Shown here in pieces: positions 11,484 to 47,220 of a stretch of 64,000 nt of DNA; the first letter of the stretch is position 1; the number at the start of each line of letters is the position of its first letter. The position numbers were made by a program, and so were the translations under genes. The notes below the pieces were generated by a model that did not search any database, was not told where the DNA came from, and saw nothing but the letters and a program-made list of their open reading frames with translations. Where the stretch lies: positions 124,001-188,000 of the forward strand of contig NZ_RDSK01000001.1 of assembly GCF_003722075.1 (NCBI RefSeq), in the 5' to 3' direction. This stretch comes from Methanohalophilus sp. RSK. GTDB lineage: Archaea > Halobacteriota > Methanosarcinia > Methanosarcinales > Methanosarcinaceae.

Positions 11484-13013
11484 TTATACTTTCCTCCTTC
11501 TCAAAAGCCCTGCTACTGCCAGCAATCCTGCAATGGCAAAGATGCCTTCAAATCCAGGGATTCCTTTATCTTCTTCCTGTGCAGTTACTGTGATCAGGTC
11601 TGTCTTCTCCACAACATCGACTCCACCTTCGCCTTCAACTGTCAGTACAACAGTGTAGGTGCCGGGTTCTTCATAGGTGTGTGTTGGGTTTGTTTGTGTG
11701 GATGTGTTCCCATCACCGAATTCCCACTGCCAGGAGTCAGCATTATCTGCCTCTGCTGTAAAGGTGACTTCCAGGGGACTCTGGCCTTCTACAGGAGTTG
11801 CTGAGAAGTCAGCTTCAATTTCTATAGGTTTTGTTTCCTGTGTGGCAGATGTATCAGCAACGATTGCAAAACTGGAGAATCCTTCGGTATTTGCTGTGTA
11901 GTACACCTTGTCCCCATCTTCTCCTGTCATTGTGGTTGGCAGTTCTGTCCATCCACTTTCCATGTCGCCTTTAGAAATTATAGTTAGATCTTCTCCTGTC
12001 ATTGTGGTTGGCAGTTCTGTCCATTCTGTGGTGTATCTCATCAATCTGATACTTGAAGTATCCACATCATTTTCATCCAGCCAGGTCTTATTCACACTGA
12101 AGGAGATCGTGGCATCCTCAATCACATCGTCATAGAGTCTTGAACCTATCCATATGTTAATGTTGCTGTAGAGGAGTCCGGGTGGCTGGGCATCAACCAG
12201 TGTAGAGGTGTCTTTGAGTACCTCAACTAGCACACTGGTATAGCCTGCATTGATCAGCGGGGTAAAAGTGATATTTTCCACCGGTCCGCTGCCTTCAGCG
12301 AAGCTGTAATCTGCCTTCATATCGTTGCCAATGTACTGACTGTCCACGCCTTTGGATTCAACGTTTTCATAGGGTTCTGCACTTATAGCAGCTCCACTGC
12401 CACCATCAGCACTGGTCTTGGACTCTTCTTCTGTTGAGGTACCACCGCCACCTGAAGGATTCAAGGTGATGGTTTTTGAATCTCCTGCTACAGTTACTTT
12501 GAATTGTCCTGGAGGAATGCTGTTTGTGTTATATTCTCCTTTAAATTCACCGTTTTTAACGTCTATATTCTGAGAAGCTGTAATTGTAAGATCTACAGAA
12601 CTTGTTCCAGGTGCAGCCTGACCGTCAATTTGTATATCATAGGTTCCAGAAGGCACATTTGACTGGGATACGATTGGCACACCTGATGATGCATCTGCAC
12701 TTTTTTTGATCCAGAGTAGCATTTTGACCCGCACATTCAGGTCCTCGGCTCCCTCTGCCCTTACTGTAAAAGTATTGGATCCCTTTGGAATTTCTACATC
12801 ATTGATGCGGTATTCGTATTCCCTGTCTTCTACTGACACGGTCTTGGTAAATTCCACATTGGCTTTTACCGAGTCTGCAGAAGATGTGCCATTTATTGTG
12901 ATCTCATCTCCCACGGTCGGATTTGAAGGAGATACTTCAAAAGCAGAGGCTGTGGAAATTCCCAGTATCAAAGTTATAAACAGTAATAATATACATTTAT
13001 TCAATCGTTTCAA
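11484..13013 (-). CDS. PGF-CTERM surface protein with PGF-pre-PGF and PKD domains
   Basis: 509 residues. A signal peptide (1-24, cut after ASA) is followed by beta-rich Ig-like repeats. A PGF-pre-PGF domain spans about residues 220-390. A PKD domain (WEFGDGNTSTQTNPTHTYEEPG) follows, then a C-terminal IPGFEG-helix-RRRKV, the PGF-CTERM signal for archaeosortase A and lipid anchoring. Many N-x-S/T sites make it a plausible substrate of the glycan locus next door. An internal repeat of WTELPTTMTGED inserts about 24 residues into the PGF-pre-PGF domain. Confidence 0.9.
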   Translation of the reverse strand: MKRLNKCILLLFITLILGISTASAFEVSPSNPTVGDEITINGTSSADSVKANVEFTKTVSVEDREYEYRINDVEIPKGSNTFTVRAEGAEDLNVRVKMLLWIKKSADASSGVPIVSQSNVPSGTYDIQIDGQAAPGTSSVDLTITASQNIDVKNGEFKGEYNTNSIPPGQFKVTVAGDSKTITLNPSGGGGTSTEEESKTSADGGSGAAISAEPYENVESKGVDSQYIGNDMKADYSFAEGSGPVENITFTPLINAGYTSVLVEVLKDTSTLVDAQPPGLLYSNINIWIGSRLYDDVIEDATISFSVNKTWLDENDVDTSSIRLMRYTTEWTELPTTMTGEDLTIISKGDMESGWTELPTTMTGEDGDKVYYTANTEGFSSFAIVADTSATQETKPIEIEADFSATPVEGQSPLEVTFTAEADNADSWQWEFGDGNTSTQTNPTHTYEEPGTYTVVLTVEGEGGVDVVEKTDLITVTAQEEDKGIPGFEGIFAIAGLLAVAGLLRRRKV

Positions 13014-44917: not shown

Positions 44918-45871
44918 TTGAATGTGAAAACCTGGTTTGCAGATATTGAAATCAATGAAGATGGAAGTGTGGCTGACTGCAGGCCATGTAGTCAGGATGT
45001 GCAGCAGCTGGCAGAAAGATTGCTTGTCTTTCAGGCAGATCCCAAACAAATCCCGCCGGCACGTTTTGATCCGGTTCAAAATGCCATTGAATGCGGTTTT
45101 GCAGCAGGGGAAACTGAATATTATTCCCTGTTGCAGCAAACCTGTATTGCAGCCACGCGGCTTAAGATAAAGAATTCCTATTCTCCGGATTTGCGAATTA
45201 TCCATGCTGTGGAAGCACTGGATGATATTGATGAAGCGGCCAACCTGCTTGCTGAGAGATTGGGCATATGGTACGGCGAACATTTCCCCGAAGCAGGCAT
45301 GCTAACCGAAAATCTGGCCAAATTCGTAGCCGAAAACGGGCTCAGGCAGGATTTACAGCAGGATTCGCAGTTCCATGAGGCTGCCCGTTCGTCGGTGGGT
45401 ATGGAAATGGACGCAGAGGACGGAGCTATCATAAAGGCTTTTGCAGCGGACCTCACTTCTCTGTATGAGAGGCGGCATGTGATAGAAGCCTATATTCACA
45501 AAAACATGAAGCAACTCGCTCCCAATCTGGATGAGGTCGCAGGAGCCAATCTGGGTGCTCGATTGATCAGTATGGCCGGGGGGTTGCAATCTCTCTCCCG
45601 GATGCCGTCAAGTACCATTCAGGTGATGGGTGCAAACCAGGCATTATTCAAACATCTCAGAGGCAAGGCTTCTTCTCCCAAACACGGTATTATTTTCAAT
45701 CATCCACTGATCAAGAATTCCCATCCCAAAATCCGGGGCAAAATGGCCCGTGCTCTTGCTTCAAGCCTGAGTATCGCAAGCAGGGTGGATGCTTTTTCCG
45801 GTCAGTTGAATCCCACAATTAAAGAAAAACTGGATCGTAAGGTCCGGTCCATCAAGGGGGGGAGCAAATGA
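44918..45871 (+). CDS. nop5: Nop5/Nop56-58-like C/D box sRNP protein
   Basis: 317 residues, TTG start at 44918 (GTG 44924 possible). An N-terminal fibrillarin-binding domain is followed by a coiled coil and the Nop domain: ANLGARLISMAGGLQSLSRMP, STIQVMGANQALFKHLRG and HGIIFNHPLIKNSHPKIRGK. It scaffolds C/D guide RNAs with L7Ae and fibrillarin for 2'-O-methylation of rRNA and tRNA. Its stop overlaps the fibrillarin start (ATGA), the usual archaeal arrangement. Confidence 0.93.
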   Translation: MNVKTWFADIEINEDGSVADCRPCSQDVQQLAERLLVFQADPKQIPPARFDPVQNAIECGFAAGETEYYSLLQQTCIAATRLKIKNSYSPDLRIIHAVEALDDIDEAANLLAERLGIWYGEHFPEAGMLTENLAKFVAENGLRQDLQQDSQFHEAARSSVGMEMDAEDGAIIKAFAADLTSLYERRHVIEAYIHKNMKQLAPNLDEVAGANLGARLISMAGGLQSLSRMPSSTIQVMGANQALFKHLRGKASSPKHGIIFNHPLIKNSHPKIRGKMARALASSLSIASRVDAFSGQLNPTIKEKLDRKVRSIKGGSK

Positions 45872-46551
45872 AGGTCAAAACCTTCCATGAATACATTTTC
45901 ACGCTACAGCAGGGCAAGAAAAGATTCCTTGCCACCAGAAATCTTTCTCCCGGCTCGCAAGTGTACGGGGAACGCCTGGTGCAGGTTGAACAGGCAGAGT
46001 ACCGTATCTGGGAGCCCAAAAGAAGTAAACTTGCGGCAATGCTGCTCAAAAAACTTCCTTCGCCCTTCACAACCACTTCAAAGGTGCTTTACCTGGGCTC
46101 GGCCACAGGTACCACTGTCAGTCATGTTTCGGATATTGTGCATCAGGGAGTGGTCTATGCAGTGGAATTCTCCCCCCGTACAATGCGGGACATGTTGCCT
46201 ATCTGTGAAGAAAGGCCAAATATAATCCCTCTGCTTGCCGATGCTTCCAAACCGCAATCCTATGCAAATGTTGTGGAGCCTGTTGATGTTATCTTTCAGG
46301 ATGTCGCCCAGCCGGACCAGGCATCCATTGCCCTGTCCAATGTGCAGCACTTCCTCAAACCCGGCGGTTACCTGTTGATGAGCATCAAGGCCCGGAGTGT
46401 GGATTCAACTGCAAAACCCGATACTGTTTTTAAACAGCAGCTCATAACATTACTGGAGCAAGATAATTCAAAATTGGAACTTGTCAAGAAACAGAAACTT
46501 GCACCGTTCCATATCGATCATCTCGGCGTAGTTGTAAAAAAGACTGAATGA
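45868..46551 (+). CDS. flpA: Fibrillarin-like rRNA/tRNA 2'-O-methyltransferase
   Basis: 227 residues. VLYLGSATGTTVSHVSDIV is the SAM-binding motif, YAVEFSPRTMRDMLPICEER and VDVIFQDVAQPDQASIALSN follow and KPGGYLLMSIKARSVDSTAK completes the fold. It is the catalytic subunit of the C/D box RNP and is coupled to nop5. Full length for the family. Confidence 0.95.
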   Translation: MKVKTFHEYIFTLQQGKKRFLATRNLSPGSQVYGERLVQVEQAEYRIWEPKRSKLAAMLLKKLPSPFTTTSKVLYLGSATGTTVSHVSDIVHQGVVYAVEFSPRTMRDMLPICEERPNIIPLLADASKPQSYANVVEPVDVIFQDVAQPDQASIALSNVQHFLKPGGYLLMSIKARSVDSTAKPDTVFKQQLITLLEQDNSKLELVKKQKLAPFHIDHLGVVVKKTE

Positions 46552-46560
46552 GGTTTGCAC

Positions 46561-46797
46561 GTGGCAGATCAGGAGGAATTGAGATAGGGGCTGGGCAAAT
46601 ATTTCGGTGTCTGTCCATCGTATCATCATTCCAGGGCCTGTTTATGCAAGAATTGTTCGTCCTATCCGGGTGAAGGTTATATGTTCTGTGCACGGGGTCC
46701 TGTATCCGGTGAGGCCCGGCAGGGCTGCAGGTGTAAGGACTGTTATGTCTATCATCAGTTTGCGCTTGAAGGGGATTATTTTTGCAGGCGGGAATGA
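46561..46797 (+). CDS. DUF2769 Cys-rich protein with an in-frame UAG
   Basis: From GTG 46561 the frame reads VADQEELR, then TAG (46585-46587), then GLGKYFGVCPSYHHSRACLC, KNCSSYPGEGYMFCARG and CRCKDCYVYHQFALEGDYFC to a TGA. The MFCARG and paired CxxC motifs are those of DUF2769, small putative metal-binding proteins of archaea. No ATG, GTG or TTG start lies between the UAG and the domain. Either UAG is read as pyrrolysine, it is a nonsense mutation, or CTG 46591 initiates 14 bases after an AGGAGG (46571-46576). Confidence 0.55.
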
Positions 46798-46800
46798 ATT

Positions 46801-47220
46801 ATGAACAAAAATACAATAATTGTGTTAATTTGTGTACTGGGAACTCTGACTCTGGCCGGATGTGTACAGCAGGAGGCTGACAACACCACACCACAAACTG
46901 AAAAATGTGAGTTTTCCGATGTTTCTGCAGCAGAGGCATTCAATATGATTGAGACAGGGGATATTTTCATCCTGGATGTACGCACCCAATCCGAATATGA
47001 TAACGGCCATCTGGAGGATTCCCACCTGATCCCTGTTTCTGAACTTGAAGGTCGGTTGGACGAGGTACCTTCGGAGACTGCGATTCTTGTCTACTGTCGC
47101 AGTGGCAGACGGAGTGTAACCGCCTCGAATATCCTTTTGGATGCGGGTTACTGTGATGTGTATAATATGGAAGCCGGTTTTAATGAATGGCGTTCTGGCG
47201 GCTACCCTTACGAGGAATAA
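46801..47220 (+). CDS. Rhodanese-domain lipoprotein
   Basis: 139 residues. A lipoprotein signal (LTLAGC, lipid-modified C21) is followed by a rhodanese domain with the active-site loop CRSGRR (C99). ILDVRTQSEYDNGHLEDSHL is the conserved early motif. It would carry sulfane sulfur or act on thiosulfate at the outer face of the membrane. It begins three bases after the DUF2769 stop, so the two are probably co-transcribed. Confidence 0.85.
   Translation: MNKNTIIVLICVLGTLTLAGCVQQEADNTTPQTEKCEFSDVSAAEAFNMIETGDIFILDVRTQSEYDNGHLEDSHLIPVSELEGRLDEVPSETAILVYCRSGRRSVTASNILLDAGYCDVYNMEAGFNEWRSGGYPYEE

Follow-up and report, generated by a model that had tools for sequence, protein, structure and literature searches.

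A private in-frame amber codon in a DUF2769 gene of Methanohalophilus sp. RSK as a candidate pyrrolysine codon of near-neutral type

Archaea able to decode UAG as pyrrolysine (Pyl) possess in-frame amber codons in MtmB, MtbB and MttB, which are conserved across homologs and specify a catalytic Pyl residue. Another type of amber is represented by Thg1 of M. acetivorans, for which the original report of Pyl is said to have appeared in PNAS in 2009. This amber is present in one species and replaced by a sense codon in its relatives, and it is translated with Pyl, which is not needed in Thg1 (excerpts of PMC2933860). According to the same excerpts, a reporter amber placed without special context in M. 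acetivorans gives approximately 20-30% of full-length product. UAG thus serves these archaea as a sense codon and as a stop. The same neutral route is described in work on a pipeline for the prediction of Pyl proteins, M. mahii being among the organisms covered (excerpts of PMC3639795). In ‘Ca. Methanomethylophilus alvus’, the Pyl proteins that have been predicted have lineage-specific ambers in conserved genes, in a genome where TAG terminators are nearly absent (excerpts of PMC4153887), and an amber-containing citrate synthase of M. mahii was proposed as a Pyl gene expressed by read-through (excerpts of PMC3017947).

Here, we describe an amber at codon 9 of a small conserved gene of the halophilic methanogen Methanohalophilus sp. 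RSK, which belongs to the known, albeit uncommon, type of private ambers in Pyl-decoding archaea. It has in common with MtmB, MtbB and MttB the in-frame UAG in a Pyl-decoding archaeon and is unlike them in being private and in occupying a variable site. As in the case of Thg1, the host carries the pyl machinery and the amber is confined to a single lineage, one step away from a sense codon; however, the Pyl of Thg1 has been physically observed, whereas the DUF2769 case is known from sequence alone and has its amber as early as codon 9. It is like the predictions for ‘Ca. M. alvus’ in combining a lineage-specific amber in a conserved gene with a scarcity of TAG terminators, in an archaeon of another order; the excerpted account names no DUF2769 protein among its predicted Pyl proteins (PMC4153887). 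With the citrate synthase of M. mahii it shares the genus, the private in-frame amber and the proposed read-through, but that gene has additional odd changes and persists as a remnant in four congeners, while the DUF2769 gene is intact in all congeners.

The interrupted DUF2769 gene and its neighbours

The window, i.e. the whole stretch of 64,000 nucleotides under analysis (G000:C1:124001-188000), derives from the draft genome of Methanohalophilus sp. RSK (G000; 1.97 Mb, 18 contigs). It was compared with five close syntenic congeners (G002, G003, G004, G006 and G007, the latter being M. mahii; G006 and G007 are finished single-contig genomes) and with two more distant genomes of the genus, G001 and G005. 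No strain closer to G000 was present among the eight genomes of the genus search. The features of the locus are as follows.

44918-45871, plus strand: Nop5-type C/D box RNP protein (PF01798, 186.1 bits)
45868-46551, plus strand: fibrillarin-like rRNA/tRNA 2'-O-methyltransferase (PF01269, 281.5 bits; NF003276), 9 nt upstream of the DUF2769 gene
46550-46554, plus strand: GAGGT, putative Shine-Dalgarno-like site 6 nt before the GTG (sequence and upstream regions of congeners)
46561-46797, plus strand: DUF2769 gene with one in-frame TAG (translation and Pfam; start, frame and stop common to all five syntenic congeners)
46585-46587, plus strand: TAG codon 9, to which CAG (Gln) corresponds in all five close congeners, a single C-to-T difference (congener comparison)
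46591-46593, plus strand: CTG, the sole near-start between the amber and G12, the first invariant residue; a restart here is possible but unlikely (sequence)
46639-46785, plus strand: PF10967 (DUF2769) domain match (Pfam)
46801-47220, plus strand: rhodanese-domain protein with a lipoprotein-like signal, 3 nt downstream of the DUF2769 gene (PF00581, 69 bits)

The frame has a GTG start and a TGA stop, and its translation reads VADQEELR*GLGKYFGVCPSYHHSRACLCKNC...FCRRE* (complete: VADQEELR*GLGKYFGVCPSYHHSRACLCKNCSSYPGEGYMFCARGPVSGEARQGCRCKDCYVYHQFALEGDYFCRRE*, the first asterisk being TAG codon 9). Read-through would give a product of 78 residues, 69 codons being intact after the TAG. The sequence-only reading had claimed a frame continuous through codon 9, with a conserved cysteine-rich domain behind it, and both points hold: with TAG read as a residue, PF10967 matches residues 27-75 with 44.9 bits (1.7e-11; Pfam gathering score 22.8 bits), and the nine invariant cysteines (18, 27, 29, 32, 43, 56, 58, 61 and 75), along with His22-His23, are all retained in the alignment of 21 sequences. 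This set of residues suggests metal binding. Likewise in agreement with that reading, neither ATG, GTG nor TTG occurs from codon 9 up to residue 41, the position of the earliest ATG past the amber, which is located within the DUF2769 domain; among in-frame near-starts, CTG 46591 comes next. Since the position of the start codon, the frame and the end are the same in all five syntenic congeners, each with CAG in place of TAG, the stretch 46561-46797 is a real interrupted gene and no chance frame. The GAGGT motif is found upstream of the start in four of these congeners, G006 having GAGGG.

AlphaFold2 run on the 21-sequence alignment reached a mean pLDDT of 42.4 and a pTM of 0.24. The search for a solved structural relative returned none (best match at E 4.3), the NCBIfam search had no match at E ≤ 1, and a literature search for the term DUF2769 retrieved no paper. 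It should be added that G000 has a second DUF2769 gene of a different subtype (G000:C17:89734-89898, L001; 89-codon open frame, 59.9 bits), which is free of internal ambers. The order Nop5-fibrillarin-DUF2769-rhodanese is kept in other Methanohalophilus and in Methanococcoides loci, and the DUF2769 gene is therefore long established; the rhodanese-domain protein contains a lipobox-like LTLAGC, as read off its sequence.

Codon 9 is CAG in each of the five close congeners (G002, G003, G004, G006 and G007), and on this comparison the amber is one C-to-T transition, CAG to TAG. The simple origin proposed previously, from Lys (AAG), is ruled out by these CAG codons. Lys does occur at the codon-9 place in one relative, G005, where it is tolerated, and Glu in G001. 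Residues before G12 are weakly conserved and 20 invariant columns follow from G12 onward in the 21 aligned sequences; the N-terminal tail is conserved among the nearest congeners only and varies across genera. No stop was found between the aligned codon-9 place and the domain at any of the 20 fetched orthologous loci. The amber is thus private to G000, and its site lies in a variable tail. It was earlier argued that sense codons in orthologs, coupled with strong N-terminal conservation, would speak against a Pyl protein: the first part stood, every ortholog having a sense codon, and the second did not, as the tail is variable across genera.

Decoding of UAG and the distribution of TAG codons in the genus

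A check for pylT and pylS, recommended in the sequence-only reading, gave a positive outcome for both. The family model located pylS with 370 bits at G000:C1:304966-305682, and a tRNA-Pyl with anticodon CTA adjoins it (ARAGORN). The cluster consists of uninterrupted ORFs of 404, 353, 390 and 259 aa, which we take, from their order and similarity, to be pylS, pylB, pylC and pylD, the family model being used for PylS only. G000 hence carries the complete pylTSBCD set, with pylB, pylC and pylD named by order and similarity; an Rfam scan of the pyl locus yielded nothing at gathering score. Two copies of MtmB and one of MttB in G000 have exactly one in-frame TAG each, and in the sister species M. 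portucalensis the Pyl residue of MttB was detected by MS/MS (excerpts of PMC4928046). One aRF1 scored over the family cut-off in G000, and termination at UAG is therefore also expected.

The near absence of TAG stops in the window, pointed out from the sequence, was confirmed: only two of 39 conservation-filtered ORFs end in TAG, and both are shadow ORFs opposite the 509-codon gene at 11484-13013. Across the sample of five genomes (G000, G002, G004, G006 and G007) TAG terminates 26 of 1024 selected ORFs, several of which are truncations of amber genes or shadow ORFs. An archaeal code in which all TAG codons stand for Pyl was reportedly described in 2025. For the share of TAG terminators, the published values amount to about 4-5% for Methanosarcina and to 1.6% for ‘Ca. 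M. alvus’ (excerpts of PMC4153887). The 353-codon pylB is the sole ORF of more than 100 codons to be TAG-ended in all five genomes. In G000 (L063:10403-11464, minus strand) and in the copies of G002, G004, G006 and G007, its frame would, upon read-through, run on into the region shared with pylC. Feedback on the Pyl supply is possible; pylB is known to end in TAG in Methanosarcina as well (excerpts of PMC2933860).

Nonsense changes were screened in approximately 313-320 kb from each of the five genomes, with 1024 gene-genomes chosen by conservation; the automatic gene picker also admitted some shadow ORFs. Raw in-frame stops numbered 162 (81 TGA, 53 TAA and 28 TAG), and several of those inspected proved to be shadow ORFs or misalignments or to lie ahead of the true start. 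Requiring at least three reference genomes with an open ORF left 17 events (10 TAG, 5 TAA, 2 TGA), a further requirement for at least 15 codons after the stop left 13 (7, 4 and 2, respectively), and conserved residues on both sides left nine (7 TAG, 2 TAA, no TGA). The both-sides rule removed a TAA at G004 134711 that comes after a frameshift. Four events were then set aside by eye, as the stop may precede the true start (both TAA, the pylC TAG in G007 and the TAG at G007 280394), which left five TAG with neither TAA nor TGA: the DUF2769 gene described here, a TIGR01177-type methyltransferase (G000), TRM5/TYW2 (G006), PPAT (G007) and a small gene (G007). With a mutational expectation of 0.38 for the share of TAG, the chance of five out of five is 0.008 and that of seven out of nine about 0.02 (hand calculation), both suggestive only because the filters were picked after the data had been seen. 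The TAG excess itself is small, partly hand-judged and likewise suggestive only, since the raw counts run in the opposite direction and several raw events are spurious.

Outside the window, the TIGR01177-type methyltransferase on contig C1 of G000 (L067:11888-12940, minus strand) has a CAG-to-TAG change at codon 254 of a 351-codon frame, with full conservation of the sequence on both sides (references for the 351 codons: G006 and G007). On this comparison it is a second candidate for a Pyl protein, and a stronger one than the DUF2769 gene. Pantetheine-phosphate adenylyltransferase (PPAT) of M. mahii (G007:C1:270753-271217; L116:10753-11217, minus strand) carries an in-frame TAG at codon 44, where the other four genomes have GGG or GAG. 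PPAT is normally essential for coenzyme A, and the amber copy is the sole PPAT above the family cut-off in G007. Private in-frame ambers in otherwise intact genes were also noted in the TRM5/TYW2 methyltransferase of G006 (L140:14771-15589, minus strand) and in a CBS-domain protein of G004 (L091:14341-15090, plus strand); the latter was left out of the counts above, having only two references.

The citrate synthase (PF00285; loci L095-L101) is intact in G002 and G005, interrupted by one TAG in G007 and reduced to C-terminal remnants in G000, G003, G004 and G006, with no PF00285 match in G001. The G007 copy also deviates at residues shared by the intact copies, e.g. GHRVYK to GHCVYK. From this distribution, decay of the gene seems to be under way in a large part of the genus, which is at odds with the Pyl read-through proposed in the literature for M. 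mahii.

Interpretation of the amber at codon 9

Judging from these comparisons, we consider it probable that the amber is near-neutral and that UAG is read, at least partly, as Pyl in the DUF2769 protein, the residue having no special role. In one Methanohalophilus lineage, a single C-to-T change would have converted CAG (Gln) at codon 9 of this small cysteine-rich gene to TAG. The tRNA-Pyl would decode the UAG in competition with the release factor; some ribosomes would produce the full-length protein with Pyl in its tolerant N-terminal tail, and the remaining ones would be lost with a peptide of eight residues. The change would be nearly neutral, with no Pyl-specific role at residue 9. As UAG is probably decodable as Pyl here, the DUF2769 gene most likely still works; we infer translation of the UAG in its mRNA, the efficiency of this translation and a working product. 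In approximately 100 nt past the UAG no stable RNA structure was predicted (MFE z = 0.38; folding equally good in 126 of 200 shuffled sequences), and the absence of a PYLIS-like structure is as expected of a neutral amber.

An early pseudogene, in which the amber inactivated a dispensable DUF2769 gene and the rest has been too young to decay, appears unlikely. In favour of it, the stop is present in a single genome, and G000 has another DUF2769 gene, on C17. Furthermore, ambers in Methanohalophilus can also mark dying genes, since the amber citrate synthase is decay-like, and the pseudogene explanation therefore keeps some weight. Another point in its favour is M57R, a radical replacement between two invariant cysteines at a position occupied by Met or Leu in all 20 other aligned sequences, which fits relaxed constraint. 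Against this, M57R is the only suspicious change in codons that the sequence-only reading had rightly described as undamaged: translation and congener comparison revealed no further stop or frameshift, and the divergence of G000 from the other five past codon 9 is not raised (0.043/0.067/0.162 at codon positions 1/2/3, as compared to 0.032-0.055/0.061-0.081/0.157-0.261 for the others). Bases unique to G000 after codon 9 comprise one synonymous-like and one nonsynonymous change (0-8 and 1-4, respectively, in the others), and, M57R aside, the remainder of the gene is not evolving faster than in its relatives. An intact frame is weak evidence if the amber is recent. Conservation of the gene order, over-representation of ambers among the filtered nonsense changes and the decodability of UAG in G000 also argue against a pseudogene.

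A base-call or assembly error, with CAG as the true codon 9, is quite improbable. The TAG occurs in one genome only, which is a draft of 18 contigs, but a second, independent CAG-to-TAG change in a conserved gene of G000 indicates that real ambers occur, similar ambers are present in the finished single-contig genomes G006 and G007, and the DUF2769 gene is free of frameshifts. We give very little credence to a start or restart at CTG 46591, or at another non-standard codon, which would leave the amber in a leader and yield a protein of 68 residues with all invariant positions. This CTG does precede G12 and has an AGGAGG 14 nt upstream (46571-46576); the spacing is, however, unfavourable, archaea rarely use CTG as a start, and a GTG or ATG start with a Shine-Dalgarno-like site is conserved in all five congeners. 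It is scarcely credible that the amber was selected, for a Pyl role in the protein or to make its synthesis dependent on the Pyl supply (growth on methylamine): at a codon so near to the start, read-through would control synthesis of the entire protein and possibly that of the rhodanese too, but the amber is found in one genome only, is shared by none of the 20 fetched orthologs and has no conserved position.

Beyond the near-neutral amber in this one gene, we can suggest only tentatively, and with some doubt, that UAG is in practice a Pyl sense codon in Methanohalophilus, nearly purged as a terminator, so that ambers would drift into housekeeping genes (PPAT of M. mahii, the fibrillarin operon) and general translation would become tied to the Pyl supply.

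The DUF2769 gene is a short and easily assayed addition to the natural candidates for Pyl proteins other than methyltransferases. Such amber genes would be called absent or pseudogenes, which is a warning for annotation pipelines. Together with the ambers of PPAT, TRM5/TYW2, the TIGR01177-type methyltransferase and the CBS-domain protein, it turns the role of UAG in these archaea, be it stop, sense codon or both, into a question that ordinary proteomics can test in cultured species, e.g. M. mahii.
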